Positions 3,772-50,674 of a stretch of 64,000 nucleotides of DNA are shown here, piece after piece. How positions within the stretch are numbered: position 1 is the first letter of the stretch; each line of letters opens with the position of its first letter. The stretch comes from Polytrichum commune. Its lineage: Eukaryota > Streptophyta > Polytrichopsida > Polytrichales > Polytrichaceae. The stretch spans positions 66,479,554-66,543,553 of the forward strand of contig OX485803.1 of the NCBI GenBank assembly GCA_950295325.1, written 5' to 3'. Under the pieces are notes generated by a model, which made no database searches, was not told the DNA's origin, and was given only the letters and a program-made list of their open reading frames with translations. A program made the translations under genes and the position numbers.

Positions 3772-5081
3772 ACGAACGTGCGTTCGACAACATCCCCATG
3801 ACATACAAATCCTACACGGGACTCAGACATCCCTGTACAACGGAACCCCATTCCGATATATATTACCCATGAAGGGCTTTGGGTGGAGTCGCAAATAAAA
3901 CATTGGAAGGGTTTTCCACCACCAAGGGACAACACAAGCACATATATTCACGAACGCGAGGACGAAAACATCAACCCAATATACAATAAAATCTAAATGG
4001 GACATATTATAAGAGCACCAAAAATATACTTGCCACTATATTCACATGCAGTAAGCATCATATTTGAGGGGCGTGTATTTGATGGACGAGAGTTTACGAA
4101 CGATCGTTCGTTAGCTACAGCCGAAATGGAGGGCTTATGTACACGAACGATCGTTCGTAAGTTCCAGCCAAAACATAGGGGCAGATGTATACGACCGATC
4201 ATATGTATGTTACAGCCGTGACAGTGTTAGGCAAAAATGATTGGACACGTCCGAATAGAGATATCTATAGCCACGTTACAGGGATACATGAAATTCAATA
4301 TCCAGTGAAAAATGACAATCGACATCTATCACTAAAATCGTGATTGAACAGATACGAATGAGCGTTCGTATCTATCATTAACACGGTGTAGTCCTCTACA
4401 CATGCTTGCGTCAACATGTCTGTTGGTGGATGCGTGGACGGTGGACAGGTGGTATTTACGAACATGCGTTCGTAAAATTGAAAAACATAATTCTCCGTGG
4501 ACATAAATGGTAGTGCCAAATACGAACGAGCGTTCGTATCTATCCTAAACATGGTGTAGTCCTCCACACATGCTTGCGTTAACAGGTCTGTTGGTGGATG
4601 CGTGGACGGTGGACAGGTGGTATTTACGAACGTGCGTTCGTAAAATTGGAAAACATAATTCTCTGTGGACATAAATGGTAGTGAGAAATACGAACGAGCG
4701 TTCATATTTAACTTCCATATTGTTAACGTGGCCAATGCACAGAAGTGTATAAATTAAGGAATGTTTATGGATTCTTGAAAAATAATCCCAGGTGATATTT
4801 ACGAATGCACGTTCGTAAATATCCCATCATCAGATGTTCCGTTGGAGAAAACGGTTACACGGGAACTCATGCGCGTCTGGGTCTTGAAGGCAGATATACG
4901 AACGTACGTTCGTATATAATCGACACAATTTTCGTGCCTAGTTCTGCCTATAAGTAACTCAATGTCGAGTACGGTTGTGAACAACTTACGAACGCACGTT
5001 CGTAAACAATTCACATCATCTCTATGTACCTCTTCTGCATGTGCTACCAACTCACGTTTACGAACGTGCGTTCGTAAACGT
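3772..5081. repeat. Family A inverted repeats, cluster 1 (12 copies)
   Basis: Copies of ACGAACG-NN-CGTTCGT start at 3772, 4096, 4143, 4354, 4458, 4522, 4626, 4690, 4801, 4898, 4988 and 5060, with a degenerate copy near 4191. Arms are nearly invariant while the central two bases vary (TG, AT, AG, CA, TA). Flanking A/T bases often extend the symmetry: the copy at 5054-5081 has 13-bp arms and the one at 4895-4916 has 10-bp arms. The cluster lies just 5' of the minus-strand DUF7869-type pseudogene, and no coding sequence was recognised in it. Confidence 0.93.
4353..4688. repeat. Tandem duplication of a 168-bp unit containing family A repeats
   Basis: Two adjacent copies of about 168 bp (4353-4520 and 4521-4688) differ at scattered positions. 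Each contains two family A inverted repeats. Local tandem duplication is therefore one way these repeats multiply. Confidence 0.85.
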
Positions 5082-8595: not shown

Positions 8596-9165
8596 CCACA
8601 TTTACGAACGTTCGTTCGTAAATGTGGCGTGAAAACATGCCTTACCCCACAAACATATACGAACGTGCGTTCGTAAATACGCACCTCACCCTCCATTTTT
8701 ACGAACGCACGTTCGTATATTCGTCTATACCCTGTACATCCTCAAATCCTCAAATCCAAATGAAACATACAAAAATACGAACGAACGTTCGTAATCACAA
8801 ACTATAATAATATCCCAAACCCTTAATGGTAATTGTCTGCATTCCCAAGTAGCATAATTTACGAACGCACGTTCGTAATTAAGAACTAAAGTATTAATTC
8901 ACCTATTTAGAAGATGCTCATAGAAATTCGAACAACCCTCGTGGAAATTAGATAACACTGGACAACTCGTGGACTTGTTTACAAACAATACGAACGCACG
9001 TTCGTAAACTTGTGTCAAATACACCTTAGCAACCACATTCTTTACGAACGATCGTTCGTAAATGAAATCAGCGAAGACATAATTAAAACTCCTCACGGGT
9101 ACCCATAGCCAGCGTTCATTGATTAGTATATATGATTTGCTTGTCAATTACGAACGCTCGTTCGT
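8596..9165. repeat. Family A inverted repeats, cluster 2 (8 copies)
   Basis: Cores start at 8604, 8659, 8701, 8777, 8861, 8990, 9044 and 9150. Spacer dinucleotides are TT, TG, CA, AA, CA, CA, AT and CT. The copy at 8596-8627 has perfect 15-bp arms, extended by CCACA / TGTGG. The cluster lies directly 5' of the acceptor CTCTGCAG that precedes the ATG at 9199. If the small exon proposed at 8201-8248 is real, all eight copies are intronic. Confidence 0.93.
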
Positions 9166-10499
9166 AAACACAATACTAAATGTTTATGTGCTCTGCAGAT
9201 GGCTAGACCGAGCAGGAGCGCCATTGAGATGTTCGCAGTGCAGATAGATCAGCTACCAGAGTCACTGTCCGACCCCAACGGAAACGATAATTATGTCCCG
9301 AAGGAGGACTTCATTGGGGAATGGACGGCACTGCCAGAGAAAACATCAGACGGTCTTTTCTGTCTTCGCTTCACCTACGAGCTGGAAACAACGCCGGACC
9401 AGCCAGAGCAATGGGTGCAGATGAAGACTTGGGAAGTAGAATCAATTGAGGCACAAGGAGATTATGTGATTTTAGACATGAAAAATAAGAAGGATCACAT
9501 TAACCTCCTGTTAGAGTACAGGAGACATAGTTTCTCCTACACATACGCAGAAAATAACGTAGTGGCTGATGCCAAACACTTCGTGAAGGACCTGTTCACG
9601 AAGTACGCCCTGAGCTCGTACTGGACAGCAAGGAAGTTGGCCGCGCTTTCCTTGAATATCTCCAAGTACAATAGCGCGGTCACCGAAGCCAACAAGAAGA
9701 AGAAGAGCCCACGAAAACCATCAGCATACGGGGCAGGAGGATCGAGAAGTGCACCCAGGCCGGTGCCTTCCGCGAGCAGGGTGACGGAGGGTCCCAGCCG
9801 ACATTCCACGCCATAGAAGAGGTCCCGGGACAAAATGGAGAGGTCTGGGGTAACAGAGGGCACTGAGGTGAGCTCTCCTCCCCTGATGCCAACCCCTTTA
9901 AAGAAGGGTGAGAATCCAGATGCAGTGAAGGCAACAAAGATCCTACAAGATTTCAATAATTACTCAAAGGATTGCTGGCCCATGGGGCGCCACTTCACGT
10001 TCAACGTGGACTGCTTCAAGTGCGAAAAGTCCCCCAACAAGTGGGTGGTAAGGTCTCGCGAGAGCGGTGGGGTGAAGTGGCAGATCAACAACCTCATGAA
10101 CAACGTAAAGTGGGATAGGCAGACCGTCTGCGTCATGCCCAAGGGGCTGACATCCCGACCGACAGAGATGGATTGGCCGCGAATCCAGAATGGAGAATTC
10201 TGGATTATAGATGGTCAGCATAGCTTGGAGGCGTCGCAACAGATCCTCAAGGATGACAACTTCCAGCACGAGCTGAAGGCTGACCTGCGGTACTGGAAGG
10301 CGTTCTTGGTCTGGTCGGACGATTGGGACAAGCTGCGCAAGATTTCAACCTTCCTGAACTCGGGGAACAAAATCAAGGCGTTCGAGGCTTCGTGGGCGGC
10401 TAACATAGTGGCTGCGAGAGACGTCTGGGTGGCACACGGATGCCCACCAAAGGAGAGGGAGAACGCCAAGAACCAGTCTCCTCAATGGAAGGTGAGTTT

Positions 10500-10573
10500 A
10501 CGAACGAACGTTCGTAAAATGTTGGACTTACGAAAACATCAATTACTGACGTGCTTTACGAACGTGCGTTCGT
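10500..10573. repeat. Family A inverted repeats inside intron 1 (2 copies)
   Basis: Cores at 10500-10515 and 10558-10573 within the 116-bp intron 10492-10607. The first begins immediately after the donor GTGAGT. The paralogue's homologous intron (19314-19504) also has two inverted repeats, but of family B. Confidence 0.95.
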
Positions 10574-11954
10574 ATTATGTGCAATACTGACATCTTGTTT
10601 TGTGCAGGCATTTTGCGACGCGATGGTAGACAAGTTCTCTTCCATCGATATGAAGTCCACCACCACAAAGTCTGTGCTTGAGCTGAAGGGTGAGCTCAGA
10701 CTGATCTGCTGCAACAGGGACACATGGGATTTGTGGACCCAGTTTTTTGATGCACACAGCTCGGGCGATTTGGTCAACCCCGACACGGAGGAGAAGTACA
10801 GTACGGAAAAAACCGGTGAAGCGCCCCCATTACTGAGGGAGTTCTTTAGACACCTCCAGGGATTGACGGAGTCAGAGCTGAAGAGGTGTGCGATTCATGT
10901 TCTTGGGAACACCGTGGGAAGAACCCTTCCCTATCCCAAGATCTTTTTGAAGAGGCCAAAGCACAAGCCCGGCACGTACTCTATCAAAGAGTGGTGTGAC
11001 CACCGGAAGCTGAAGACTGCAGCCATGAGAGAGTTGAGCGTACTCGTACCAGAGTACAGAATCTTTGAAGTCGACGGCGACATCATCTGGCCGCAATGGC
11101 AAATGTTAAAGGTCGACTACAACATCAACGGAGCCTCCATGCGCAGTCTGGTCAAGGAGCACGCCTCGGTTTTGAAGTTGAAGGGGAACAAAAGGACTAA
11201 GAAAACCGACACGGATCCCCATGAGGTTATGCTGTACTTAAAATTTTTGGAGAGGAAGAGGAACGCCACATTCGAAGGAGTGGCAAGGTTTTGCGTGATC
11301 ACCTCCGGCGTGGAGAGGGTCACATTTTCCAAGTGGGACGGCACCATCAGCAGGGCCGAGGTGAGGGAGGATCGACGGGGTTGCCCTTTTGCCCTCATCG
11401 ATTTCAGGGGGATCCCGGGTGCGTCAAGGCAGGGGGGAAGGACATTCCCTTCTACAACCCTTTCATGGCCAAGTTCATGGAGTTCAAATCGCCGGCCATG
11501 AGGGAGCCACACGTTTGGCTGTGGATAGTCGAACAAGAGAAGCTGTCTGTGGTCACAGAGTTGTACGAGCAGAAGATCAAATTCGAGTACAACATCTTCC
11601 ACAGCACGTACGTGCTAGCGAAGACGGAGGGGATCGTGGCCATCAACGAGGCCAGGGGCAACAAGCAGGTGGGAGCGGTCAGCCTGATTTTCTTGACGTA
11701 CAATGAGCTAAGGGATGGGCGACCGCCTATCAAGGCAAACAACACGTTCAAGAAAATCTACAGCATCCCGCATCCCCCTCCCAAGGATCTGCTGCAAGAG
11801 ACCCTCTACACCGTCTTCCCCGCCATGGAACTCAGGATGGAGTTCTACGTCTCTGTATTGCAGAGTCTGGTTATAAGTGGAGAGACGGTATACAATGTAT
11901 GTGGAGGCTCCAAATTCATGTATGCGGCTATGGTAAGTTGTCCAGACTCCATTT

Positions 11955-12123
11955 ACGAACGCTCGTTCGTAAAGTTAACCAACTTCTCAATGTATTGTTT
12001 CACAGTCGCTGCACGTGACGCATTCATGTTTACGAACGCTCGTTCGTAAACATAACCCCTTCGTAATGTAATGCTTGAAACTCGTTGCACGCTACGCTTT
12101 GATGTTTACGAACGTGCGTTCGT
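11955..12123. repeat. Family A inverted repeats inside intron 2 (3 copies)
   Basis: Cores at 11955, 12032 and 12108 in the intron 11933-12154. The second is extended to 13-bp arms (12026-12053). Confidence 0.95.
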
Positions 12124-13135
12124 ATTTTCTGACCTTATTGCTCTCTTCTCACAGATGATGGGTCTCGTAGTCAACACATTCGTTGACGCTATCGACGAAG
12201 AAGACTTCAAGATCCACCGTGCGAAGGCGTCGACGATGGACCTCAAGGACATCTCTGTCCCCAGGATGGACTTCAGTATGCCCGCCGACGAGGGCATACC
12301 ATTCCACGATTCTGAGGACGACGAGCCCACCCCCTCCGCCAACGTGGACGCCATTTTGCAGTCCTTCGACGTACCCCCACTTCGGATCTTGCCGCCAACG
12401 ACGGATCTTCCCGACCCTCAAGGGACGCCGGGTGGTTACACCGGGTCGTCCGCGGGGACAACCCTGGACGTCCTCCCGGCGAGAACATCTCTTGCGGAGC
12501 CTTTCGGAACGCCAGGCGGATGCTCGACGTCACAGTCTCCAAGGCCCGCCGTGGTTCCGAAGATGGAAACCCTGGACATCCTCGACCAACGCTCGCGGCC
12601 ATCTTTGGACCTCTTCCGCAACACAAGGAGGAGGATGAAGAAGACTCCATACGTGGAGTTGCCGCCGGGAGCAATCATCGAGGTCTCGGACGAGGACGAG
12701 GGGGACATGGACATCATGGCCGAGCTTGGCGTGGACTACGACAAGAACAAGCGGGTGAAGGAGGAGGCACTCACCGTCGCTGAGCTCAACGCCAAGCTGG
12801 AGGCGAAGATGAAGGAGGAGATGGCTGCAGCACAGGAGGAGAGCGCGAAGCATCTGGCCAGGCTGCAAGAGCAGCTGAGGGATTCAGCGGCCAAAACCGA
12901 CGCCATCTTTGAGATGCTCAGAAACATGCAGAGCCTCTCTGCGCCGGTCCAGCAACCTTACCCCTTCCCCCTTGGAGGATACCCCTCACAGCCCCCACCT
13001 CCAGTCATGTACCAAGGAGGGCCTTCCCACCAAACAGCGCCACACCCAACGCCGGCGGGAAGTCCATTGCCCCCGGAAGTGACGGCGGCCGCCTCAACCT
13101 CCCACGATGCAATCACGGCGGCGCTAAGGGAGGAC

Positions 13136-13167
13136 GAAGATTTACGAACGCGCGTTCGTGAATCTTC
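13136..13167. repeat. Family A inverted repeat inside coding exon 3
   Basis: Core 13144-13159 with 15-bp arms and one mismatch. It sits inside the open frame and is translated as LRTRVRES without disturbing it. Confidence 0.93.
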
Positions 13168-13531
13168 AGGTCCGGCAGTCCTCACCCCTCCCCCTTCAAG
13201 GGTAGGACTGCCCACAGACACCGACACGGCCTCTTTCACCGTCGTCCCAAGGGTTCTAGATAGGCGGGGCGATGACACTGCGCAACACACTGACATGGTC
13301 ATTGTGGAGGAAACGTAGGGGAGCCCCAATGACTCGGCAGGTCCGCGTGGGATGGTCGTGGAGAGCCCTGACCAGGAAGGACATCCGTCCGCGCACATGG
13401 AGGATGTCCGCATGGAGAGACTCGACCTGGGCGGGGACAACGACATGGAGCTCATCCAACAGACCCAGTCGTCTCAGGAGTAGCGTCCAGCGGAGGTCAT
13501 GGATCCAGAGGCTGCTTCCCCAATGGATATT

Positions 13532-13605
13532 ACGAACGCGCGTTCGTTAATCAAAGAGGTAACTCATCTCTGAGAATGCCAAATGTTTTACGAACGCGCG
13601 TTCGT
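13532..13605. repeat. Family A inverted repeats at the end of exon 3 and start of intron 3
   Basis: Core 13532-13547 lies in exon 3 (translated ITNARS). Core 13590-13605 lies just inside intron 3. Both have the spacer CG. Confidence 0.93.
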
Positions 13606-13899
13606 AATATCACTAACCCCCCGCGTTGTGTTCTTGGCGCTTCAACTCCATCGACATCACGTTGCCCGCGCGAGCATTTTTCTACGTGATCGCTTGGGCC
13701 GATCAATTTTGTAGGACACTGCATTTTTTCCTTAGGAAATTGTGATAGATTATCACGCGAGACAAATGTACATATTCACCGAATTAATATATGAGCAGAC
13801 GATCTCTGCTCGCATCCCCTCAACTTATTGCATATTCTCGCGTCTTGTGTTGTCTGTGCTCTTGCGCGTCCTTGCATTCTTTGCATGCACACCTCACTC

Positions 13900-14046
13900 A
13901 CGAACGCTCGTTCGTAAAACTGTGCGACCCCGTCTTGACATCCTTCGCGAACGAGCGTTCGTATATGCATGCATCCGCGCTCACGAACGAGCGTTCGTAA
14001 ATGATGCGCACCGCCCCACAGCCTTCATTCACGAACGGTCGTTCGC
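13900..14046. repeat. Family A inverted repeats in intron 3 (4 copies)
   Basis: Cores at 13900, 13947, 13983 and 14031, spacers CT, AG, AG and GT. Two copies carry one arm-end change. All lie in the putative intron 13559-14182. Confidence 0.93.
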
Positions 14047-14182
14047 AATTGTGCCCCTCTGAACATTCTCCTTGCACCCTCCTCACTTCCTCCTCTTTTC
14101 CCATAATGCATCGTCTTTATTTTCAACGCAACAATTTCTTTATTGGATCATAGAATTAAACTAGTCGCGTTGTTCATCACAG

Positions 14183-14950
14183 GACCCCCCGGAGATAGGT
14201 CGCAACCCCTCGACCAGTGGACCTCGAACCTGGAACAAACCGTTCCTCGTTTTTGACCTCAACGAGGTGTTGTGTCACACCCAACACATCCCAAGGGTCC
14301 CCACGCGTCCCTTCCGTCACCCCGACGAAAGGGACTACGACGGCGAGCTCGACACCCTCATTAACCGCAAGGTTGTCCGCGCCCGTCCCGGCCTGCGGGA
14401 CTTCCTTCGCGAGGTGGTCGAGTTCGCCCACGTCGTTGTGTGGAGCTCCATGGTCATGGACAACACGGAGCCCATCGTCCACTTCTTATTCCGTGATCTC
14501 CCGAGCCCTTGCCTCGTCCTCGGCCAAGAGGACTGCGACGAGCTGCTCGACGAGAAAGGCCGACCGGTGCCCAAGTTTGGCGGTCGAGGCGGAGGACAAC
14601 AGTTCCTCAAGGTCCTCCGTTCAAGACTCTGGCAAGGCGTCCCCCGTCTACATGGGACGCCCCACGGGTGGTGGCCGACTCCTGAGAACACCCTCCTCAT
14701 CGACGACAGCCCCACCAAGAGCGTGTTGAACCCCCCGGGCAACGTCATCTTCCCGGACACTTGGACCGGCGATAGGCAAGACACATATTTGGTCGATAGG
14801 CTAGCCCCCTACCTTAGAAGGCTCGTGCTCCACGCCGGTAGCATCCCATTTTTTGTTAGGTCCAACCCCTTCGGCAATGCGGCGCTAAGCCCCCGCGATA
14901 ATTTATATAAGAGCATCATGAGGCTCGCCAAACTCAATAAATTGATTTGA
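14183..14950 (+). CDS. FCP1/NIF-like HAD phosphatase domain, probable C-terminal exon of copy 1
   Basis: An open exon begins after the acceptor TTCATCACAG. It starts in the same phase (0) in which the preceding ParB-like exon ends at 13558. HAD motif I is FLVFDLNEVL at about 14243-14272: the nucleophile Asp is present, but the second Asp of DxDxT is Asn. The motif II region is VVVWSSM, and motif IV is LLIDDSPTK with the Asp pair at 14702-14707. The RPGLRDFLREV segment is typical of FCP1/NIF (NLI-interacting) domains. Some plant members of this group also have Asp-x-Asn in motif I, so the change need not mean loss of activity, but phosphatase activity is unproven. The exon ends with a TGA at 14948. 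It could be a stand-alone gene, but phase and spacing favour fusion to the ParB-like exons. No such domain was found beside the minus-strand paralogue. Confidence 0.72.
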   Translation, partial: DPPEIGRNPSTSGPRTWNKPFLVFDLNEVLCHTQHIPRVPTRPFRHPDERDYDGELDTLINRKVVRARPGLRDFLREVVEFAHVVVWSSMVMDNTEPIVHFLFRDLPSPCLVLGQEDCDELLDEKGRPVPKFGGRGGGQQFLKVLRSRLWQGVPRLHGTPHGWWPTPENTLLIDDSPTKSVLNPPGNVIFPDTWTGDRQDTYLVDRLAPYLRRLVLHAGSIPFFVRSNPFGNAALSPRDNLYKSIMRLAKLNKLI

Positions 14951-16015: not shown

Positions 16016-16631
16016 TGGGTCGGACTAGTGTGACTAGAAGCGTACTAGTGGGACGGACTCCCTAAATGCTTAGGTGTAGAACATATTTAAGTGCTTACTT
16101 TCTAGTATGCTATTCCAAGTTACTCAAGACATTGATGGTATTTCCATTATAATTGTATTTCAATCCCAATTAATTCATTAAACTTCCATTCATTCTTCGC
16201 ACCTTCCCTTCCATTCATAACGAGTTGTCATTTCATACGCAACTATTTTCATGTATGCCTCACATTTTTGTTCACTTCCATGCCTTTATGTATAATAATA
16301 GTAGCATACCATTATACATATGGGATTTTTAGTCGTCATTACTGGTCCAATTTTGAAATGCGCATCCTTATATAGTCTCATAATCAACAAAAAGTCTCCA
16401 ATTACCGAATATAGTGTTCGATGCCAGATTAGCAGGCGGCTCTTGTACATCCGAGATCGGATCCTGCTGGATGACATCGTCATCTACTAGACCTCGGACA
16501 AAATCTTCCTTGACTGGCAAATCGTTCGCGCGGTCATCACAATTTAAATCTGGGCAGCGCAAAACAATCTCTTGGGAATCAGGAAAAATGGGGATGAATG
16601 ACGATACAGAAAGAAGTGAATGAAAGCCGAG
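16016..16631. other. AT-rich intergenic region between the convergent copy 1 and copy 2 loci
   Basis: Mostly AT-rich DNA. On the minus strand a short open stretch (about 16368-16620, containing CPDLNCDD) follows the copy 2 gene and could be a further exon of it. The acceptor is weak and no domain was recognised. Confidence 0.35.
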
Positions 16632-16725
16632 CAGTTTAGCTTGAGTAGAGCTAAACTGTACGCGGTAACATTTGAATTTATAACAAAGAAAGCCAAGCAG
16701 TTTAGTTCGTGTCGAGCTAAACTTG
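16632..16725. repeat. Family B inverted repeats 3' of copy 2 (2 copies, tandem)
   Basis: 16632-16658 has 10-bp perfect arms, CAGTTTAGCT / AGCTAAACTG, around TGAGTAG. 16698-16725 is a variant with 12-13-bp arms. Both lie in a tandemly duplicated unit of about 67 bp beginning GAAAGCC. Downstream on the minus strand relative to copy 2. Confidence 0.92.
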
Positions 16726-17919
16726 TCGCGGTAAAATATTAATACATTACAAAAGTTTGGTCAAAAATCCGCGTGTTACAAGAGTTCTTTCTTTTCTGCC
16801 GAAAAATACATCTCAACTACTGCACACTGAATCTAGAAACTAAGTTCGGGGGGGACCTGCAGATGCCCCGTGCACATCGCCCTCGTCTGAGTATCAGGGG
16901 GTACTTGGGGAGCTGGACTTCGTGAAGGCTCACACACCTCGGTACTGGGAGATGGCGGAGAACGTCTTTGCGAATCACTGACGCCTGCACCTCCATTTTC
17001 ACTTTGAACATTAGGCAATACCGATCCACTCAGACCTTGCACTTCTAGCGCACTTGAAGTCCCGCCTAGTGGCACACTCGAAGTTCGCATGTCAGAAGCC
17101 GACAGATTCATCGGCAGCTTGTTGCTAAAGGCCATATGAATCATTTTCATCATTTCTTCATGGCGGATCCTAGCCTCTTCATCTCGCTTCGCTTGCTGAG
17201 CAAGAAAGCGACCCTCGCGCTCCTCGAAATCCGCCTGCATCCGCTTCCGCTCAGCCTCCCCTTCCTCAACCTTCCTCTTCAGCTGATCGAGCTTGTCGTT
17301 GTCTTCGATGAACCTACCCAACGGAGAGCTCCTCTCAGACATCCCGCCTCTTTTCTTTTTTCCAATTCCTCGACCTTTTCCTGACGTGTTACGCAAATCC
17401 TGAGTAGAGATTGGTCTCCGGTCGGCTAGCTCATGCTCATGTACGTCGACAAACTCAAGCCGCCGGTTGAGAATTGGGGAGTCGTCGCCTGGCCTAGAAT
17501 CCGTTTGGCTCTCGAGATTGAGCGGAAATGCATCAGCCTGTGACTCCTCAGCGCTAACGTCGAAGGCGCTTGAAGTAGAAGTGTCCGCACGAGTAGGAAT
17601 GTCTTCCTCTTCAACTTCCTCGTCCTCATCGGCACGCGCTCGGGACTTACCTTTCGCGATCGCCTTTGCAACCATTGGATGAATCTTCTCGTCAACGGGA
17701 TAACCATCAACTGAAAAATCCAGAGAATCAAGACCCTCTTGCCTTCATTCAACGCATCTTCTATGGCATCCTCATCGTCATAATCTGATATGACGAACGT
17801 CTCGAGGGACAACATCTACACAGATAAACGGTGGTTATTAGATAATGGTATGCAACATTCAGACATATCCAACCAAGGGTAGAACAGACCAGTTAATAGA
17901 AACATAATTGATGCAGGGA

Positions 17920-17946
17920 CAGTTTAGCTCGAGTAGAGCTAAACTG
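17920..17946. repeat. Family B inverted repeat in copy 2 second intron
   Basis: 11-bp perfect arms around GAGTA, within the intron 17816-17959. The homologous intron in copy 1 has three family A repeats. Confidence 0.95.
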
Positions 17947-19362
17947 CAATGAAGCTTACCACGCTGGCGGTAACTACTTTGACACCAGCGAAGAGAAGAA
18001 AAATTGAATCATGTTTCTCGCAGAACATCCCTAGAACCTCCAAATAGAACTCCATCCTCAGCTCAGCTGGATACATGGCATACTGGAGCTCGTTGAACTT
18101 ACGGGGCTTATCGTATAGCACATGTTTCGGAGTCACATAGGCATTCTTAGGCTTTTGCGTGATGCCGAGCTCTGACTTCATAAGAAAGAGAAGTCAAACA
18201 GGCTCCGTTGCCAGCTTGCTCTTTGGGGCGTGTCCACCGAGACACTCATTTGGAGCCGGATGGTATTTCGAGGGAAAGTGCTCGAACAACCCTGTCAACG
18301 GGGACTTCCTTGCAAATGCTTCCACTTCCAAGTAATCCATGTCGTCACCATAGATGAACAGCCAACATGGTACATCTGTCAATGCAGGCTCATTCTGGGA
18401 TGTGAAGACTTTCATGATCTCCTCAAAGAATGGCTTCTCAACGGTGGAAGAAGACTTTCTGCTATTGCCCGGCATGAATCTGAAGTCGATTATCCCGAGC
18501 TTTGCATTACTCCCGTACTCGGTCCACTTGTTCGAGGGCCAGTGGCCAAGGGAGATAGCTGGGTTCGCTTGAAATTTGCGAAAATGCACGGCACCTTGCG
18601 GGGGCTCGAACCAGGATCGTCGTTCGATGAAAACCATGAAAAACTGCTTGGCATAAGGCGACAGGTCTTCGCAGGGGGTATTCCGATGCATCGTTTGCCT
18701 CTGATTGCTATAGTACTGATCTGGGATCCTCCAATCCAAAAGCGCGCGCATAGATGCCTTGCTCATGTGATAGTCCCTCTTAAATTTTGTCCACGCAGTT
18801 CTATCAAACTCGTTGTTCTTGAACAAGCCAAGAACAGGCTTGATCTTATGAATTTGCAGCTACGCAGTCGCCTTCCGCTTCCTCCGTTCAATCCAATCTC
18901 TCACGGAGTAGCAGTCCACCCTCAGCGCCGTAGGTTGCTTCAAAACAACTTTGGGATAGTTGTACTCCCTAGAAGGACCTGAACGGTTGAGGATATGTTT
19001 ACACAATTTGACATGATCAGCCTCGGACAAGTTTCCTAGTTGTTTGAAAAAATTCCCTCGAGAGGACTCCATCTTTATCCGGAACAAAGTTCTTGTGGTT
19101 CTTATACTTTTCAAGTTCTTTGGAGTCGACATCAATAAGGTCCCCCTGTGCGGCACAAGTGATCACCTCCAGCCAAAGATCCCATGTTGCGTCGGGAAAG
19201 GTAATAATCTTAACCTCGTCTGTGAGGGTAAGAAGTTTGTTCTTCGACACCTCCATTAGATGCTTCGCCACATCAATCATGGAGAACCTCTCGCGAATCG
19301 CTGCCATAAATTTCTGCATCCAGAAAACGAGTAAAATAAGGTTGACATTACATCACGATGCA

Positions 19363-19389
19363 CAGTTTAGCTTGACTCAAGCTAAAGTG
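19363..19389. repeat. Family B inverted repeat in copy 2 first intron, copy a
   Basis: CAGTTTAGCTTG-ACT-CAAGCTAAAGTG, arms of 12 bp with one mismatch, within the intron 19314-19504. Confidence 0.92.
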
Positions 19390-19451
19390 TTCATGAGTTG
19401 AACTCAGACCTTGGTATTAATCATAGTCAGACTAATGCACATTAGGAAATG

Positions 19452-19478
19452 CAGTTTAACTCGACTAAAGCTAAACTG
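19452..19478. repeat. Family B inverted repeat in copy 2 first intron, copy b
   Basis: Arms CAGTTTAACT / AAGCTAAACTG with small changes, 60 bp from copy a in the same intron. Confidence 0.9.
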
Positions 19479-20032
19479 GATATGGATGGTTCCAACCATC
19501 TTACCTCAAATGTAGCATTCTCTGCCTGTGATCGTCTTTGGTGAACCCTGTTATCGGTAACGCCCGCTGCTGCATGCTTTATTTGTGGCCTCCCGTAATT
19601 CTCCCACACTGAGCGCGCTGCAAGGATGTTGGTAGCCCACGTCTGCTTGAACGGAGTCAAGTGATTCACTCTGTTATAGAACGCCGATATTTTGCGCAGC
19701 TTCTCGATGTCCTTGGTCCAAACAATGAAGCAATGTCACGTTCTAAAATCCTAAATCCTATAGCCTCGGGCTTATTGCCATTGATCATGGCTTTTGAAGC
19801 GGCAACGCTGTACTGGCCGTTGATGATGAAGAATTCACAGTCCTGCATCTCGGACTCATCTGTCGGCTTGAACTCCATATCCGGCATGATGCATAGCGTT
19901 TGCTTCTGCGATCTGTCAGGCATGTTCATGAAGAAATTCTTGAGCTCCTCCATTTCCCTTTGCTCAAAGGTACGAATAATCCATTCATGAGGGACATTCT
20001 TTAACTTCATCACATCTATCTTCATCTTCTTC

Positions 20033-20912: not shown

Positions 20913-21445
20913 AAACGGAGAGAAATAGTCGCATAGAGAGCGGCGAGGCTGCGGGTGGAGAAAGGGAGGCAACCTAGCTAGGGCAGGGAGCGCCACGTGG
21001 GGAAGTAGGGCAGTAAGAACCAACGGCTTCTAAGAGCCGAGAAGGCCACAACTCGGTCCCATGAACTCCCACCAGTACCACCAAAGCTGCAATAACAACC
21101 GAGACCGATACCCAGTATGACAGTTCGGTGAGACCCAAGGGAAGAGAGACCTCGATAGAACCCAGAGAGCTGCGAAAGGCAAGATGGAGGGAAAAGACAA
21201 TGGATGAATGTACACTCACGGAAGCAAACATTTGGAAAAAAAAAAGCGTGGGAAGTCCAGGCCTCCACTCACCGAAATTATAGCAAGACTCCAATGATGG
21301 GTAAGTGGATGGGCCCTTACCCCAGTAATGACTTAGACCGCATTGGAAGTACTTACTCGGAGGCTGGTAGTTTACACCCTATTGGAGCCCAGGATACTAT
21401 TTGGGAACACAACCTCTTCCCAAAACTGAAGGAATCATATACAAA

Positions 21446-21781
21446 GACATTATGGCTAGCATAAGCCTAGATATTATGGCTAGCGTAAGCCTAGATATTA
21501 TGGCTAGCATAAGCCTAGATATTATGGCTAGCGTAAGCCTAGATATTATGGCTAGCGTAAGCCTAGATATTATGGCTAGCGTAAGCCTAGATATTATGGC
21601 TAGCGTAAGCCTAGATATTATGGCTAGGATAATCCTAGATATTATGGCTAATATAAGCCTAGACATTATCGCTAGCATGAGCCTAGATATTATGGCTAGT
21701 ATAAGCCTAGATATTATGGCTTGCATAAGCTTAGATATTATGGCTAGCATAAGCCTAGACATTATAGCTAGTATAAGCCTA
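21446..21781 (+). repeat. 24-bp minisatellite, 14 units
   Basis: Fourteen direct units of the type ATTATGGCTAGCRTAAGCCTAGAT. The unit is a multiple of three, so the plus frame reads as an octapeptide repeat (IMASISLD / IMASVSLD) inside an open frame at 21401-21949. The minus strand is also open. Units near the 3' end are more diverged. Lies between the Glu-rich ORF and the LINE endonuclease. Confidence 0.97.
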
Positions 21782-21985
21782 AATAACTCAACGGAATTTA
21801 GAAGGAAGGAGACAAGAATGCATAACCAAGTTGCGCCACTAGTCGATACACCAATTAGGAATAGTGCATCTAGTTTGATGGCCTTAGGGAAACATGACCT
21901 TACTCCAAGACAAAGAAGTATATGGAGTGTAGCCATCTCCCTCTACTAAATGGAGTAATTTGTGGATTTTTAATCAATTATTGAA

Positions 21986-25980: not shown

Positions 25981-28900
25981 TCAATCATGACCATTAATGG
26001 CCACGGAATGAGAGGCTTTCCGACAACGAGGACAAACCCAATTGCCAGAAGGAAGAGTAAAAAAGGGAGGTGTCAAACATGCCATGTGCCATCCACGTTG
26101 ACATTGGTCGCACAATAACATTGTTGCAGCTCCTTTCTTCTCTCCACAAACATAACAAGGCAGACCCTGTGGTACAACCGCCAACTCGGGATGCATAGAG
26201 CCGTCGATGGGAAGGTGACATGGAGCGCAATTCTTTGAATGCTCACGACATTCCCGTCCATCCTTGCCTTCAAGCAATAATATACCACTTGGCAAGACAT
26301 ATTTTACCCGCAAAATCGTGCGCCCAGCCTTGACATCCAATGTCGTAGGCGCCTCCCGTTGCAAGTAAACATAATCCCCCTTGGAAAATCTACGAACCTG
26401 AGGTCGATAAGCTCCACTGTGGATCCGGGCATACCGTAATGTATCACGATGTTGAGCAATATTTAAGTTCTCCATAGCCATAGGCATGGCCTTTTGGAAG
26501 AACGCTGCTCGGTCATGAAGACATTGAGCCCAAACATTTGGATCATCCAAGTTTACCACGGGAGCCAATTTCTCTCGTACCGAGCTAGGTAAAATTGGTT
26601 CCCGTCCATACAAGAGTTGATAAGGACTATAGGATGCCAAAGATGCTTGCCTGCTGAAACGATAACCCATTGCTATCCATGGTAACATCAAGTCCCAATC
26701 GCGATGGTTGCCATGAAGCAATCCATACTTCCGCAAACCGCGCTTAACCGTCTGAACAACTCGTTCAGCTAAGCCATCTGCCTCAGGGTGATCTCTGGAA
26801 GTTGTCCGATGATCAATCAAAGCCTTGGTACACAAAGCCTCGAAAGATCCAAGGAATTCTCTCCCTTGATCCGTCAACACCTCTGCAGGTGCTCCAAACC
26901 GTGCCAAAACTCGATCAAGAAATGCCATAGCCGCCAATTCTGAGGAATTTTGGGGAAGAGCCACGAGTTCAATCCACTTACTAAAATGCTCCACCATCAC
27001 AAGCACATACTTGGAACCACGTGGAGTGATAGTAAGTGGTCCGGAAAAATCCAAAGACCAACGATATCCCAAGCCCATAATAGGTAAAGGCTGAAGTTGA
27101 GGTGACAAAGTATTAAAACTTGACCTGACCCGGTCACATACTTCACACCGAGAAACATAAGTGGCAACCTGTTGATACATACCAGTCCACCAATATTGGT
27201 TGCGCAACATAGAGTGCGTCCTTCGCACTCCAAAATGTCCAAGCTCCTCGTGCACTTGCCGCACCAAAGAAGCTCTTTGATCTGGCCTTGGAACGATGCG
27301 CCTCGTTCCGTTCGGCCACACACGAAATAACAAGCTATTTGCCCAACGAAACCTTGTTATCCGGTGACTAACTCTATCTCGCTTCATAGCAGATAGTCCA
27401 AGAGGAAATATCCCTTGTTGAAGTTTGTGCAAGACCGCCTGGTCTTCCCACACATCACTAACAACGAGAGATTTATCAACCTCCTCATCTTGTTCTTCTA
27501 CAAGGATCTCAGCAGCCAATCCCGACATCATTGTGAGATATGTGGCAGCATGCCAACCCGGCACTGCCTCACGATCACAATCTCCATGCCACCTGGCTCC
27601 AGTTAAATCCTCATCTGAAGGACTTGGATTGCGAGACAATCCGTCTGCATCCAAGTTGGCAATTCCTACTCGGTGAACAACTTCAAAATCATATTCCTGA
27701 AGTAACAATGCCCATCTAGCAAGTTTCACGGTGAGCTTATCTGATTCCATAAGCCATTTTAAAGGCTGATGATCAGTCACCAAAGTAAACTTTTACCCAT
27801 ACAAATAAGGTCGAAAATGTGCAATGGCCCAAACGGCCGCCAAGGCCTCGCCTTCATAAGAAGAATAATTAGATTTAGCACTATTATTGCTTCTAGATGC
27901 ATAAGCCACCACATATTTTTTTCCCTCTTCATCTTTCTGTGTCAATACCGCTCCCAATCCCACTACACTCCAATCCGTGTGCAATTGAAAAGCTCTAGAC
28001 ACATCCGGGCGTCGAAGCACTGGCGCTGAACCGAGCCTCTGCTTCAATGTATCAAATGCCTGTTGTTGTTCCCGATTCCAAATCCATGGTTGGTCTTTCC
28101 CCGTAAGAATTGTAAGAGGTTTGGCAATCAAACTAAAGTTTTTGACAAACCTCCTATAATAATTTGCCAATCCTAGAAATGCACGAAGCCGTGGTACATC
28201 ACTAGGTGCGGGAATTTTGTGCAAAGCATCCACCTTCGCCTGTTGCACACCAAGACCGCCAGGAATAATCATGTGGCCTAAATAGGGCAATTGATCATGG
28301 AGAAACTTACATTTTCTATGATGTAAACGGAGTCCCCACCGTTGAAGTCGTTCAAATACCGCTTGCAAATGTCTCACATGATTTTGTGGATTATTACTAA
28401 AGATGGTAACATCATCAATGTAACATCTAGCAAACGGCAAACCAGCCAATAATTGGTCCATCACCCGTTGAAATTCAGCTGGTGCATTCTTGAGACCAAA
28501 TGGCAGAAATTTCCAATGATAAAGTTGATCCTTGCCATCTTTATCAATTCCCCAAAATGCGGTCTTCACCCGATCACCCAACAACAAAGGTAATTAGTGA
28601 TAACCAGACCTCAAATCCAGAGTGCTGAAGATTCTAGAAAATCCCAGTGCATCAAACAACTCCTCCGGCATCGGCATTGGATATCGATCCGACTTGGTCT
28701 TGCGGTTGACTCGACGATAATCACCACACATCCGTTTTTCCGTCCAGTTGCCAAAGATATCCTTCTTTGACGGCATAACCGTGGCACAAGCATACTCTCC
28801 ATTGGAAAGTTCAATCAATTCCGCTGCCAATAACTCTTGACATCGAGTTTGAACACCCAACCTTTCAGATGCACTAAGTCTGTACGGCCGTCTGAAAATA

Positions 28901-31203
28901 GGGTGGTCGTCCTCGAGTTGAATACGAACAGGTTTACCTTTATATCCTTCAAGATCGTGAAGACTAAAGGCAAAACAATTACGGTAAGAGCGAATAAATG
29001 CCTGTACCTTTCGTGCTTCGGCACCAGTAAGCTTTGGCCCCACTTCAATTGGCCAATCGTCAAACTCCGTGGTTTCCTTCTTCATAGAAGGATTGCCACT
29101 TGGTGCCAGCACAGCCTGTGATTGCTAGTCCGTGGAGAGGGCAACACCTTTGCCCCCATCATCTGCACTTGAATCCAAATGCGTATCCTCTCCACTACAA
29201 TCAGTTTGTGTAGCTAAATAGCTACCCACATATGAAATATCACCAAGAAATAGAATTGGAAACATTTTATGGGCCTCCAACTTCCCAAACTCTTGGGCCA
29301 AAGCCGAAAAAACACGTTGAGCTCGAAGCTCTTCCGCAACATGTTGTTTCAAAGAAAATAATCCCTCGGTGTCATTGACCTCAATGTGATCCTTGGATTG
29401 CGGCTCCATTGCCCCCTGACCATTGTTCTTTGCCCCCAGAGTAAGCAATTGGTCATCCATACGTTGCTGAGCAGCAAGACAAATTCCAATTATCCACACA
29501 ATGCTATTAAGATCCATAGCTTGCCCCAATAGGAAACGTCTCTGACCTTCCTGAAGCCCGTGAGCAGCCGTGGTACCTGTAAGAAACCCCATGGCGCGTT
29601 CCCACTCATCTGCCGTAGGCTCCTCATAAGTTTGGGATTTTGAATCCCAAACCATGCCAGGTCTACGAGATCGAAATGCAAAAGACTGTGGATATGCCAC
29701 AAAAGTAGGTAGTGCACCTCTTGGAATGCCCACCTTGTTAATTAATGCAAATGGCAAGGTGTCATCCTTGGTAACTGCCAAGGAAACACGATGATCATCT
29801 AAAATGTGATCCACCTTGCGATCCATAAGGCGGGGAAGGCGGGCAATCGCCGTTGAAAGCACCCGAGGTGATACCAAGTTGGTCCAAAACCAACGAGGCC
29901 GATGAGCAAAGGATCCCAAAGATGCGGCATCCAGAAATGTTGGAGTACCCAAAATTTGGTTAATGTACTCACCATCCTTCACCACTTTGTGCCGGGTATC
30001 ACCCAATAATGGTACATTTTCGAAAATGTACCTTGGCGGAGTTGATTGGTGGGTAAACCACCATTGCGTCAATCGCATCAAATCCGCAAACAAACTAGAC
30101 CTAGGATCATCCAATCCCTGGCCAGTTCCTGCCCGCGAATGGCCTTGACAAGGCCATCCTGCAATAATCAAATCCACGTGGCCCAACCTTCTCAAATCCT
30201 CATCACTAATCATAGTGACATCTTGAGGAAGTTGACCACAACATCTATGAATGGCAGAGGCTGACAATTGTGCGGGGTATCTTAACAACAATTGTTGGAT
30301 GTGGTGTCGGACGGCTCTGTTGGTTGCATATCCATTGCCCACATGAATATATCGCCGAACTGTAATTCTAGCTTCCAACACTGCCGCCAAACCTGTGCCA
30401 ATGCCTCCAAAGATCTCCACAAGGACAATACCTTCAGGTGATGGTTGCCAACGAATGGGTTGAGCAAAAGAAAATGAGGATGAAGTTGGAGATGCCTCTC
30501 CAAGCTCCAAATCCGCTACAATGTGTTGACAATGGTCGGATAACTCCTTAGGAGTTCGCCATGGTGGAGGTGGATCCTTGAAATGTCGAGCAGGAATTTG
30601 AAAAGATAGTAAAAATTGTTGTTCTGCCGCATTACAAGTGTAGTCCATTGTTTCCTCCAATAAAACTGGAGCACAAGACAAATCTGCAACTGAACCGCTG
30701 CAACCAAACATTGCCTCCGCAACCATAGTCATAGCAGTGGCTGCAAATGTGACGGGAATAAATACCTTCCTGTCATCTCCAGTGGACCATCCCGGTCTAA
30801 TCCATGCCTCTTCCGTCCAATTATCCAAACCAAAGCCAAGTGGGTAAAGAGCTTGCTGACCAACAAGTATATCATAGTTGGTAGCATTAGTAACAACACA
30901 CTTCATTGACAAATGAGTGTAAGTAGGCCCTGCCCCCACATGAAAAATCAAACGTAGAGGTGCCTTGGTGTAACCTGTTGCACGTTCAGTGCCCCCTACT
31001 GAAGTCACAATAGTGAATGGACAAGGATCCAAGCTTGCTGGCGTCAATCCAAAACTGTCAGCAAGTCCTTTGCCAATCATAACTAGTTGAGCACCGGAAT
31101 CCATCATAACTCTCAGTGGTGTAGCACGGATAGTGGGCATATCCGTGCGTGAAACAACAAACAAAGATTTGTCGTTCATCAGCCGTACGACTCCAGGTTG
31201 CAA
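25981..31203 (-). pseudogene. gypsy Pol polyprotein: protease, DNMT, RT, RNase H, integrase, PHD finger
   Basis: One frame of about 1,740 codons interrupted only by TAG at 29125-29127, TAA at 28594-28596 and TAA at 27793-27795; no frameshift. The first part has a retropepsin motif (VMMDSGAQ, Asp near residue 35) and the methyltransferase. RT has LDLRSGYH, FLPFGLKNAP and the catalytic CYIDD. RNase H has a LHTDWS segment and TDHQPLKWL. Integrase has an HHCC zinc motif (HEELGHFG ... CEVC) and DDE residues in SLDFSGPL, LTDQGREF and EADGLAERV. The end is a C4HC3 PHD finger (CYVCGEK ... LLCDQCQRGWHMAC ... WVCPRC). Each stop fits a single C-to-T change of a Gln codon; SGYH is normally followed by Gln in this family. 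The first codon shown is not ATG, so Pol is expected to be made by frameshifting from Gag. Confidence 0.9.
29480..30432 (-). other. Cytosine-5 DNA methyltransferase domain within gypsy Pol
   Basis: Roughly residues 258-575 of the first Pol segment. Motif I is VEIFGGIGTGL (SAM binding). Motif IV is IIAGWPCQGHS, with the catalytic Cys at about residue 352. Motif VI is YIFENVPLL. Motif VIII is HRPRWFWTNL. The C-terminal motif X-like stretch is FLLGQAMDLN, resembling the LLG segment of DNMT3/DRM-class enzymes. All catalytic motifs look intact and the domain is uninterrupted. It is predicted to methylate cytosine in DNA. It lies between protease and RT. Class assignment (DNMT3/DRM rather than DNMT1/CMT) is by motif style and is less certain than the enzyme type. 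Confidence 0.88.
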
Positions 31204-33221
31204 ATTATGCCGTTCGCGAGCAGGCCTTGCAGAATGTCTGCAAGATATGCCGCTCCCGACGCATAATTCGAAAATGACGTATCCACTGCTGAAATTGATG
31301 CTGGAGGAATATCAGTTTGCTTACCAAAAGCAATGATCGCCGCATCCGCAAGACTCGCTCGCAAATTGGCTAAGTCCTCCACCTCCTCAGCCACAGGTAC
31401 GTCAACCACAGCTTGGGATACTTGAAGGGATGGCAAATCCGCCTTACCTTCTAACATTCTCCCAGCTAAATGAAAAACTGCAGTAGGCTTGAAATCCGAA
31501 GCCATAAATTCCGAACCCGAGAAAATTGGCATATGGAGAATTTTATATGCCAATGCCTGCGTAACATCCTTCGAGATGGAATCCCCATCTCTCAAAGGTA
31601 CAGGGTTTTTAGCCCCAACAACAGTGGTGTCTACCAATCCAAATGAAAGAGGTAAACGTGCTTGACCAATTTGATCAGCTGGTCCGGCATGGCGAGGATG
31701 TAGCACCTCGTTGCTACCACCACTCGTGGAAGCCACCGCATCTGCCAATGTTTGTGAGCGAGTAGAAGCCGCCGCCACCACCTCTCCAGCTGCTCCAAAC
31801 ATATACATGTCCGAACCCGAGGTGCCATCACCCACATGCGGCTCATAAATTTGAGCAAAAGATGCAGAAGATTTGAGCTTTTGCTCAAGCTCTGCCACCT
31901 TAGCCTCAAGACTCTGCTCCCTTGGAGACTTTCCAGTGACATAACTGGCAGGCCGCATCTCAGGATGAAGTTGGAAACAATGATCCACATCGTAATTAGT
32001 GCCACCACAATAGTTACATTTCAATTGTCTCTTCTTAGAATTGTCCCCTGCCTTTACTGGTTCCATCTTTTGTTTTAATTTTTCCAAAGGCTGAGTTTTC
32101 TTCTTCTTAGGACAATTGGGATCATTCTTCGAATGACCAGCTTCTCCACAACCCCAACAATGCAAAAACTTTTGCTCCTTGACGGCTTGAGTCTCAGCTA
32201 AACTACTAGTAGCTGTGACAATTCTTCTTGGTTTCGGACTCTCTGTCATCCAAGATACCATATCCGTGGCATCATGTTGGCAAAGAGCCCGATCACATCT
32301 CTCAACCACGGCAAACGCTTGTGCAAGCGTAGCTCGGCCCTCGTAGTCGAGGATAATCCGAGGTGATGCCAACTCAAGTAGCCGCTTGTCAATCTTAGAC
32401 AAAAAGATTTTAACAAGCTGACTCTCAGCAAAAACACCTCCCGACTCCACAGCAAATCGCGCGAGTCGCGTATACATGGTCCGTGGAGTATCATCCTTCT
32501 CTCGGCGGAAATCCTGGATGCGCTGCATCTGGTCTCGCCGAAACCCACCATACTCCACTTCCAAATGTGCGACAAATTCAGTAAGGGGATTAAACGGAGG
32601 TGGTGGACCAACAGCCGTCAATGCTGCCTGTGTAGCACGTGCTACCCGTGAAAGGGTTGCCGTGCTACTGCTAGCCACCATTGGCCCAAGTGCCAGTTCT
32701 GTGTCCTTAGACTCCGCCGGCGATTCCTCCTCCTTTAAGGTGGGTGGAGCTAAGGTAGCAACCGCCCCATCCTTAAGGGCTGAAATGAGCTCAACCCGAG
32801 CTTCCCAATACTGCTCCACCTCCCGAAGTTGTCGCTGATGACCCTTTGTCCAGTGTTCATAAGTTTGGAGTGCCTCATACTCCAAATGTTGAGGCAGAAG
32901 TTCAAAGGCATACCAATCATTGAAATTGGAAGACCTTTGGCGTTTCTCCTTAATCCAGGTACGAAACCGGAGTTTCCAATCGGGCAAGGAAATGCCCCCA
33001 GCTCGACCTGAAAACCGATCACGCATTGAATTGTGGCGATCGTCCTCCATTTCGTCGAACGTGCCGACACTCCAAATCCGAAGCCTACTAGTAGTGTCCA
33101 ACGCCGAAATAGGCTCAAAAGCCTCGTTGGTATCTACCTTTGGCTCAAGATTTGTGGTATGCACGTCCTCCAAGTAATCTGGTGATGGAGATCGATAATA
33201 TCGGCTCCTAGTTTGCACCAT
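31179..33221 (-). CDS. gypsy Gag protein
   Basis: Intact 680-codon frame from an ATG (MVQTRSRYYRS). It has a central retrotransposon-gag-like helical region (VAHLEVEYGGF, FRREKDDTPRTMYTRLARF), then two Cys/His zinc-binding clusters: a CCHC-like knuckle CWGCGEAGHSKNDPNC and a second CNYCGG...HC cluster. The C-terminal third is Ser/Ala-rich with a coiled-coil stretch (LEAKVAELEQKL). Its end overlaps the start of the protease frame. Predicted to form the cytoplasmic particle and bind element RNA. Longer than many gypsy Gag proteins. Confidence 0.88.
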   Translation of the reverse strand: MVQTRSRYYRSPSPDYLEDVHTTNLEPKVDTNEAFEPISALDTTSRLRIWSVGTFDEMEDDRHNSMRDRFSGRAGGISLPDWKLRFRTWIKEKRQRSSNFNDWYAFELLPQHLEYEALQTYEHWTKGHQRQLREVEQYWEARVELISALKDGAVATLAPPTLKEEESPAESKDTELALGPMVASSSTATLSRVARATQAALTAVGPPPPFNPLTEFVAHLEVEYGGFRRDQMQRIQDFRREKDDTPRTMYTRLARFAVESGGVFAESQLVKIFLSKIDKRLLELASPRIILDYEGRATLAQAFAVVERCDRALCQHDATDMVSWMTESPKPRRIVTATSSLAETQAVKEQKFLHCWGCGEAGHSKNDPNCPKKKKTQPLEKLKQKMEPVKAGDNSKKRQLKCNYCGGTNYDVDHCFQLHPEMRPASYVTGKSPREQSLEAKVAELEQKLKSSASFAQIYEPHVGDGTSGSDMYMFGAAGEVVAAASTRSQTLADAVASTSGGSNEVLHPRHAGPADQIGQARLPLSFGLVDTTVVGAKNPVPLRDGDSISKDVTQALAYKILHMPIFSGSEFMASDFKPTAVFHLAGRMLEGKADLPSLQVSQAVVDVPVAEEVEDLANLRASLADAAIIAFGKQTDIPPASISAVDTSFSNYASGAAYLADILQGLLANGIICNLESYG

Positions 33222-37059: not shown

Positions 37060-37720
37060 CCTATGTTCGGGGAAAACCGACGGCTAGTTCATTATTAGCC
37101 GATGGATTTTCCCTCATGGCCAGTCCAAATTTCCAACCATCAGATGGCAATCTGATTGTAATTTCAATCCTCCGGCAATTAGCCGATGGACCAGAAAATG
37201 TCCCAGAAATGTAGCCGATTCTTCTTGTGAGTTATTGAATTTCAGCCGGAAGCATCCAGAGCGCTATTTGTCTGGGGCATATGATGATGCACTTGAGGAA
37301 GTACCCTAAACCTTAAACTTTTTGAATTATGCAACCTTTCCATGACCAAATCCAATTGCTTCTATGAAGAATTGGGGGACCCTTGGCCTTCAAGCGGTGA
37401 AGGCATTGCTAGGTTCAATTCCTGCCAAGGATATTAACTCTTCAAATTTAAAGTTTTGAACATGCCTTTCTTTTCACTTATTCAAGATTTTGTACTAAGA
37501 AATGGTTTCTAATAACTTTTCATACATTTTTTAAACAATTAGTGCTGATATGAATTCCATTTAATCGGATATTGGCCAATAAAAATATGAAAATATAGGC
37601 AATTGACCGATTGATTTTACAGAAGACCGGCTCTTGCCGATGTAAATTGGAAAAAATCCGACCCTTCATAGCAACTACGGGCAATTAGCCACTAAGGCTT
37701 CAAAAACTTCCCGAACTCTG
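37060..37720. repeat. CACTA-like subterminal sequence, full copy of a duplicated segment
   Basis: Rich in short motifs of the CCGACGGC / CCGATGGA / GCCGATG type, arranged in both orientations as in CACTA (CMC/EnSpm) subterminal regions. 37060-37122 matches 48851-48913, and 37124-37720 matches 50078-50674 with equal length (597 bp) and few substitutions. No coding sequence. Confidence 0.75.
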
Positions 37721-50077: not shown

Positions 50078-50674
50078 TCCAAATTTCCAACCATCGGATG
50101 GCAATCCGACTGTAATTTCAATCCTCCGGCAATTAGCCAATGGACCAGAAAATGTCCCGGAAATGTAGCTGATTCTTCTTGTGAGTTACTGGATTTCAGC
50201 CGGAAGCATCCAAAGCTCTATTTGTCTGGGGCATCTGATGATGCACTTGAGGAAGTACCCTAGACCTTAAACTTTTTGAATTATGCAACCTTTCCATGAC
50301 CAAATCCAATTGCTTTTATGAAGAATTGGGGGACCCTTGGCCTTCAAGTGGTGAAGGCATTGCTAGGTTCAATTCCTGCCAAGGATATTAACTCTTCAAA
50401 TTTAAAGTTTTGAACATGCCTTTCTTTTCACTTATTCAAGATTTTGTACTAAGAAATGATTTCTAATAACTTTTCATACATTTTTTAAACAATTAGTGCC
50501 GATATGAATTCCATTTAATCGGATATTGGCCAATGAAAATATGAAAATATAGGCAATTGGCCGATTGATTTTACAAAAGACCGGCTCTTGCCGATGTAAA
50601 TTGGAAAAAATCCGACCCTTCGTAGCAACTACCGACAATTAGGCACTAAGGCTTCAAAAACTTCCCAAACTCTG
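50078..50674. repeat. 597-bp duplicate of 37124-37720
   Basis: Same length and colinear throughout with scattered substitutions, including CCGATTGATTTTACA and GACCGGCTCTTGCCGATG. Non-coding. Confidence 0.9.

Follow-up and report, generated by a model that had tools for sequence, protein, structure and literature searches.

Gene copies and palindromes at the locus

The stretch of DNA analysed here (the window) comprises 64,000 nucleotides of Polytrichum commune (contig OX485803.1 of assembly GCA_950295325.1, positions 66,479,554 to 66,543,553) and holds two copies of a gene predicted to encode a ParB-like protein, each accompanied by short palindromes of its own. Copy 1 and copy 2 are divergent paralogues ∼3.5 kb apart, both broken by in-frame stops and frameshifts, with introns 1 and 2 at matching places. 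A preliminary description of this DNA had located five palindromes at copy 2 (two in intron 1, one in intron 2 and two 3' of the gene) at intron positions shared with copy 1; all five lie where it had put them, and copy 1 also has two sites in intron 1 (and three in intron 2). Copy 2, on the minus strand, is arranged as follows (palindromes and repeats, here and below, carry no strand):

19505..20019, minus strand: exon 1 remnant, ParB-CTPase-like domain with INGQYS motif, frameshifted (tblastn; splice site)
19314..19504, minus strand: intron 1, GT-AG, two sites
19452..19478: palindrome (CAGTTTAACTCGACTAAAGCTAAACTG), intron 1
19363..19389: palindrome, intron 1
17960..19313, minus strand: exon 2, helical region with RRKRK, internal stops and frameshift
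17816..17959, minus strand: intron 2, GT-AG, one site
17920..17946: palindrome, intron 2
16833..17815, minus strand: exon 3 (approximate, since the reading frame is broken)
16698..16724: palindrome 3' of the gene, in unit 2 of the 66-bp tandem repeat
16632..16658: palindrome 3' of the gene, in unit 1 of the 66-bp tandem repeat
16622..16753: 66-bp tandem repeat (2.0 units), one palindrome in each unit

The 5' part of exon 1 of copy 2 gave no tblastn match. Exon 3 appears to encode the end of a methyltransferase-like fold, an acidic linker and a charged C terminus.

The five copy-2 sites are 27 bp long and retain 10 to 12 of 13 dyad pairs; their outer 10-nt arms are perfect in two sites and have one or two mismatches in the other three. 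With at most one mismatch, the arm CAGTTTAGCT is matched 12 times in the window (shuffle mean 3.6, with none of 100 shuffles reaching 12), and 10 of the 12 matches are arms of these five sites. Palindromes of the form 10-7-10 with at most two mismatches number eight between 16000 and 20500, the five sites included, against a mean of 1.9 and a maximum of six in 200 Markov sequences; the non-chance feature is one sequence repeated five times, not the palindromes as such. None of the five lies inside an exon (∼2.85 kb of exon, with limits rounded by a few bases), and sites of this type (D, see below) with up to three mismatches are confined to these five places within the window.

The D consensus has two CpGs per site, and one or both are gone in four of the five copy-2 sites (16632-19478). 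A change of CG to TG or CA is expected from a methylated cytosine; three of the six losses are of this kind and three are not, so this decay is a weak sign of past methylation.

The palindromes of copy 1 (family A, ACGAACGNNCGTTCGT core) are matched 33 times with at most two mismatches, all between 3772 and 15326 (shuffle mean 0.1). Site-bearing tandem repeats of the window have units of 66, 76 and 168 bp. Copy 1 and its sites are arranged as follows:

3772..5075: twelve family A palindromes, ∼4-5.4 kb upstream of exon 1, partly in a 168-bp tandem repeat
8604..9165: eight family A palindromes, upstream of exon 1
9200..10491, plus strand: exon 1, N-terminal beta domain and ParB-CTPase-like domain (DGQHS), in-frame stop
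10492-10607: intron 1, two sites
10500..10573: two family A palindromes, intron 1
10608..11932, plus strand: exon 2, methyltransferase-fold exon, frameshift
11933-12154: intron 2, three sites
11955..12123: three family A palindromes, intron 2, in a 76-bp tandem repeat (2.3 units)
12155..13318, plus strand: exon 3 (3' limit is the end of the reading frame)
13144..13159: one family A palindrome within exon 3 (an exception)
13532..14046: six family A palindromes, 3' of the gene

Pfam scans covered 15 open reading frames (ORFs) of the window. A DUF7869 ORF (E 2.8e-37; 490-2130, minus strand) lies upstream of the 3772-5075 cluster and may be part of the same element; among the open-licence papers searched, none naming DUF7869 was found. 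An ORF similar to NIF/CTD phosphatases (PF03031, E 1.7e-16; 14165-14950, plus strand), which may be a host gene or a passenger, follows immediately 3' of copy 1 and its last family A sites.

Relatives of the genes

Three protein searches, the third limited to the best 8000 candidates, returned 59, 77 and 55 proteins, 170 of them distinct. Most are encoded on ena, jgi or lgn contigs, and one (P0123) is annotated as Physcomitrium patens. A group of 20 rows has a median identity of 88% across 19 contigs, told apart by their length; together with the broken copies and the divergent paralogues lying close to each other, this group suggests a mobile or selfish family. In P0014 (863 amino acids), exon 1 is joined to exon 2 without intron 1, and judging by its sequence this is an intron-less or retro-copied member.

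One relative was studied as DNA: L001, on the 6.2-kb contig CADCWO010000269.1, which is filed under a cyanobacterial (Synechococcales) metagenome-assembled genome. Its four exons, spliced at GT-AG, give an uninterrupted protein of 1333 amino acids; because of these spliceosomal-type introns and the intact spliced protein, it is probably a eukaryotic contaminant of a bacterial genome record. L001 carries eight TTCAGCTCG-NNN-CGAGCTGAA sites, each with at most two changes. The intron preceding exon 1 holds three of them, introns 1 and 2 hold one apiece, and three are downstream; 4.0 kb of exon hold none. The layout is that of copy 2, and the site differs from the copy-2 site by one letter, altered on both arms. 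Sites 3' of the gene are common to all three loci (copy 1, copy 2 and L001).

These placements bear on the idea of autoregulation alone, with the sites as operators by which the protein would govern nothing but transcription of its own gene. Sites do lie upstream and in early introns, and DndB, of the ParB superfamily, is described as a negative transcriptional regulator in the text on that protein (PMC10853773); but 33 sites across 11.5 kb around copy 1 go far beyond what an operator needs, and 3' sites at all three loci fit it poorly, so that we consider autoregulation alone quite unlikely.

Pfam and NCBIfam scans of family members gave no reliable family, sequence searches of PDB with members no convincing match, profile scans of viral contigs (alignments A1 and A5) no relative and a plasmid megablast no match. 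Two scans of viral contigs for the palindromes hit three and seven contigs, with one site each, and these were taken as chance.

Predicted folds of the encoded proteins

With the exons folded separately, structure prediction gave a ParB N-terminal CTPase fold and a beta-class DNA N6A/N4C methyltransferase fold, both in exons of one gene; exon 2 of copy 2 is assigned the methyltransferase fold by homology to the modelled P0048. In the beta class, motif IV ([DNS]PP[YFW]) precedes motif I (FxGxG). At the presumed column of motif IV, none of the 64 rows of alignment A5 has a DPPY-like motif (DFR in 58, DLR in four, DFC and DTQ in one each), and a lysine replaces the second glycine of motif I in 63 out of 63. 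The protein is predicted to combine a ParB-CTPase-like domain with a DNA-methyltransferase fold of the beta class whose catalytic motifs are altered. The DGQHS motif of the family resembles DGQHR, which is given as a signature of DndB-type ParB/Srx domains in the relevant part of PMC4619093.

Motifs decoded from read-through protein tails

Many predicted proteins of the family carry translated intron codons at their C-terminal (or N-terminal) end, because gene callers overrun exon ends, and intronic DNA motifs can thereby be recovered from protein catalogues. Relatives of copy 1 have tails such as LRTNVRK, FTNARS and YERAFV, which are three frames of the A palindrome, and relatives of copy 2 have SSTRAK, LARVELN and QLDSS-stop, which are frames of D palindromes. 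A decoder asked of each tail peptide whether it can encode a given dyad motif (eight exon-1 rows shorter than 150 amino acids were excluded beforehand). Usable tails were present in 48 exon-1 and 73 exon-2 rows, and labels were obtained for 35 out of 65 exon-1 rows and 29 out of 104 exon-2 rows. Residue-shuffled tails gave means of 0.095 and 0.075 labelled rows (maximum one and two), and 67,335 exon residues gave two.

The half-sites with a spacer of 2 are TTACGAACG (A), TTACGGACG (B), TTACGGCCG (B2), TTTGGGTCG (C1) and TTTCGGTCG (C2), those with a spacer of 3 are TTTAGCTCG (D1) and TTCAGCTCG (D2), and the mirror follows each. A and D1 were read directly in window DNA, and the DNA of L001 confirms D2; for B, B2, C1 and C2, letters beyond the decoded core are extrapolated. 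The spacer stayed constant at 2 or 3 (33 out of 33; 8 out of 8), and the two arms covaried in 19 out of 19 and 14 out of 15 tails. The A and D sites appear to share one architecture, TT-N5-CG, spacer and mirror, in an alignment of half-sites made post hoc. The preliminary description had called the copy-2 repeat completely different from family A: the sequences do differ, but 'unrelated' was too strong. A GANTC core (the CcrM-like target) was considered as a rule for D sites, and tails with other spacers argue against it.

Arm covariation and the fixed spacer are better explained by a symmetric protein dimer bound to duplex DNA than by a hairpin or by chance. A role in RNA, in which hairpins in introns and untranslated regions would control the splicing or stability of their own transcript, could draw on the hairpin that every motif can form on paper and on the frequent position of intron sites near the 5' splice site. 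However, a hairpin loop needs no fixed spacer, copy 1 also has sites 4-5.4 kb upstream, each of the three loci has sites downstream, and the near-donor placement is partly an artefact, because tails are read only up to the first stop; we regard this role as very unlikely.

Motif follows gene phylogeny

Motif labels were placed on an exon-1 tree (64 rows, 32 labelled, seven states) and an exon-2 tree (104 rows, 27 labelled, four states); three labels per tree come from DNA (copy 1, copy 2 and L001) and the rest from peptides. Nine labels could be either A or B, because the two look alike in one frame, and one could be C1 or C2; these ten were kept out of the counts. The exon-1 tree requires seven motif changes (minimum six), where 1000 label shuffles require at least 15, and the exon-2 tree four (minimum three), where shuffles require at least nine. 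Within groups of similar motifs, A/B/B2 on exon 1 needs two changes (shuffle mean 7.1; 0 out of 1000 shuffles as low) and D1/D2 on exon 2 also two (mean 4.9; 9 out of 1000); D1/D2 on exon 1 and A/B2 on exon 2 differ by a single odd row each and are uninformative.

The preliminary description had proposed that each gene copy has its own cognate sites, with gene and site diverging together, and the motif following the gene tree and the covariation of the two arms point the same way. Its expectation of a private motif in each clade held for the overall fit on both exons and had no support for C1/C2; motifs uncorrelated with the phylogeny, which it named as a contrary finding, were not seen overall.

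The palindromes might instead be tiny insertions resembling miniature inverted-repeat transposable elements (MITEs) that reached introns by chance and were then copied along with the gene. They are palindromic, multi-copy and mostly non-coding, as MITEs would be, yet both arms change together, motifs differ between gene clades, D-type sites are absent elsewhere in the window, and a transposable unit of 20-27 bp would be very short; this explanation seems barely credible.

Proposed function and comparison with known systems

From what was computed here (the sites and their mostly non-coding placement, the fixed spacing, the covariation of the arms, the fit of motif to phylogeny and the predicted folds) we infer, with somewhat better than even confidence, that the palindromes are the cognate DNA sites of the encoded protein in a multi-copy, mobile-element-like family. 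It is as if several branches of the gene family had their own version of the site, like a private tag read by their own protein. The protein would probably bind the palindrome as a symmetric dimer, with a half-site of about TT-N5-CG and a spacer of 2 or 3 bp, and so recognize only copies of its own subfamily; sites would be kept in introns, upstream and downstream, where the coding frame is undisturbed. As VANC does for VANDAL transposons, the protein would most likely protect the element from silencing, by coating or marking its DNA; the next most likely outcome would be an accessory role in transposition.

Several observations weigh against this interpretation. Usable tails were available for 121 rows, and 57 of these rows yielded no motif; some of the 57 are one change off, and others (e.g. 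P0131, P0132 and P0135) have nothing recognizable. B, B2, C1 and C2 are derived from the same peptide tails that they label, C1/C2 on exon 1 needs two changes against 2.7, no better than shuffles (336 out of 1000), and the two trees are quick ones in which long branches were flagged and the only support values come from the Shimodaira–Hasegawa-like approximate likelihood ratio test (SH-aLRT). Exon 3 of copy 1 contains a family A site, and a different ORF holds a near-match (15311). ParB has a phosphate-binding motif of the GERR type, which was not found in alignment A4 (DGQHS in 45 out of 55 rows, NGQHS in six, others in four). A helix-turn-helix in exon 2, suggested by a sequence impression and two weak matches, was set aside. 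Transposase, terminal repeats and target-site duplications were not recognized at these loci, without a systematic search.

The sites could also be bound by the element's own transposition machinery, the ParB/methyltransferase-like protein being an accessory and not an anti-silencer. Clustered repeats and clade-private motifs would suit this, as would the Ectocarpus ParB-methyltransferase gene, described as lying within a Sola1 transposon (PMC12477816), but the palindromes are spread over introns and both flanks, and element ends and transposase went unrecognized, as said above; we consider it unlikely.

Returning to the protein as a reader of its own sites, VANDAL/VANC of Arabidopsis appears to be the nearest mechanism by analogy. 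The passages on it describe short motifs peculiar to one transposon family, which lie in introns and in intergenic and terminal DNA, are often tandemly repeated and diverge together with the protein, and anti-silencing is shown (PMC5735166, PMC10398659). The family described here is like it in having private short motifs in non-coding DNA, partly within tandem repeats, that follow the phylogeny of the gene. Unlike our palindromes, the VANC21 motif YAGTATTAY has one orientation and is non-palindromic, and those passages name no ParB or methyltransferase fold for VANC (PMC5735166, PMC10398659); loss of DNA methylation is demonstrated there, whereas the present family is known from sequence alone.

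As for the protein, this gene type has already been noticed in Ectocarpus, where Sola1-1 has an accessory gene with a ParB-like domain and an N4/N6 DNA methyltransferase, and the authors suggest that such proteins can bind the sequence of their own transposon and modify it epigenetically (PMC12477816). Compared by description, the combination and the eukaryotic mobile-element setting are alike; however, the section on Sola1-1 names no cognate site, its methyltransferase is predicted to make N4mC or N6mA whereas all 64 members here lack DPPY, and the Ectocarpus gene is inside Sola1 while the present loci are assigned to no Sola, EnSpm or named transposon (PMC12477816). Phage fusions of ParB with N6_N4_Mtase, as described in part of PMC12704722, join the ParB-CTPase fold to the same methyltransferase class, but they are phage genes, and tblastn of P0040 and P0105 against phage records gave no match up to E 1.

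With bacterial ParB/parS (Noc, KorB) the family shares the ParB-CTPase fold and palindromic sites near the gene; it differs in having DGQHS for the GERR-type motif, a methyltransferase fold downstream, a eukaryotic setting, introns, and sites that differ between paralogues. ParA was not seen near the present genes, in analyses that included no search aimed at it. CACTA (En/Spm) elements have repeated, family-private, subterminal binding motifs for TNPA; the repeated private motifs are alike, while the subterminal clustering and the partner transposase are not established for the present loci.

A fuller scheme is conceivable, and we offer it tentatively as rather less than an even chance: a eukaryotic self-tag resembling ParB/parS, in which a ParB-type nucleotide switch with a pseudo-methyltransferase would load at private intron and flank palindromes, spread and block silencing, while the specificities of site and protein co-diversify into mutually blind subfamilies within one genome. 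Searches of the open-licence literature found no report of cognate palindromes, or of their co-diversification with this gene type, though other papers may hold one. Self-marking of transposon-like DNA by private DNA words would, if true, have arisen here for a second time, apparently independently, and with a protein put together from parts of bacterial partition and methylation systems. A natural co-evolution series would then be available in the clades whose motifs can be read, and in it the recognition rules of a ParB-methyltransferase hybrid can be tested, as can the idea that self-specific anti-silencing splits elements into mutually blind families.

Other features of the window

A Gypsy-like retrotransposon (25981-31311, perhaps to 33284, minus strand) encodes integrase, reverse transcriptase, RNase H and a PHD finger. 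It also has a C-5 cytosine DNA methylase domain (PF00145, E 8e-12), in an ORF with an aspartyl protease match below the cutoff; Gypsy elements with Dnmt3 are described for the charophyte Klebsormidium nitens in part of PMC5890265. This element, like the moss protein among the relatives of the ParB-like genes, suggests a streptophyte source. An array of 24-bp tandem repeats (14 registers, 21373-21852) lies in open frames, and a 300-bp direct repeat (37124-37423 and 50078-50377) is 95% identical over a distance of 13 kb.
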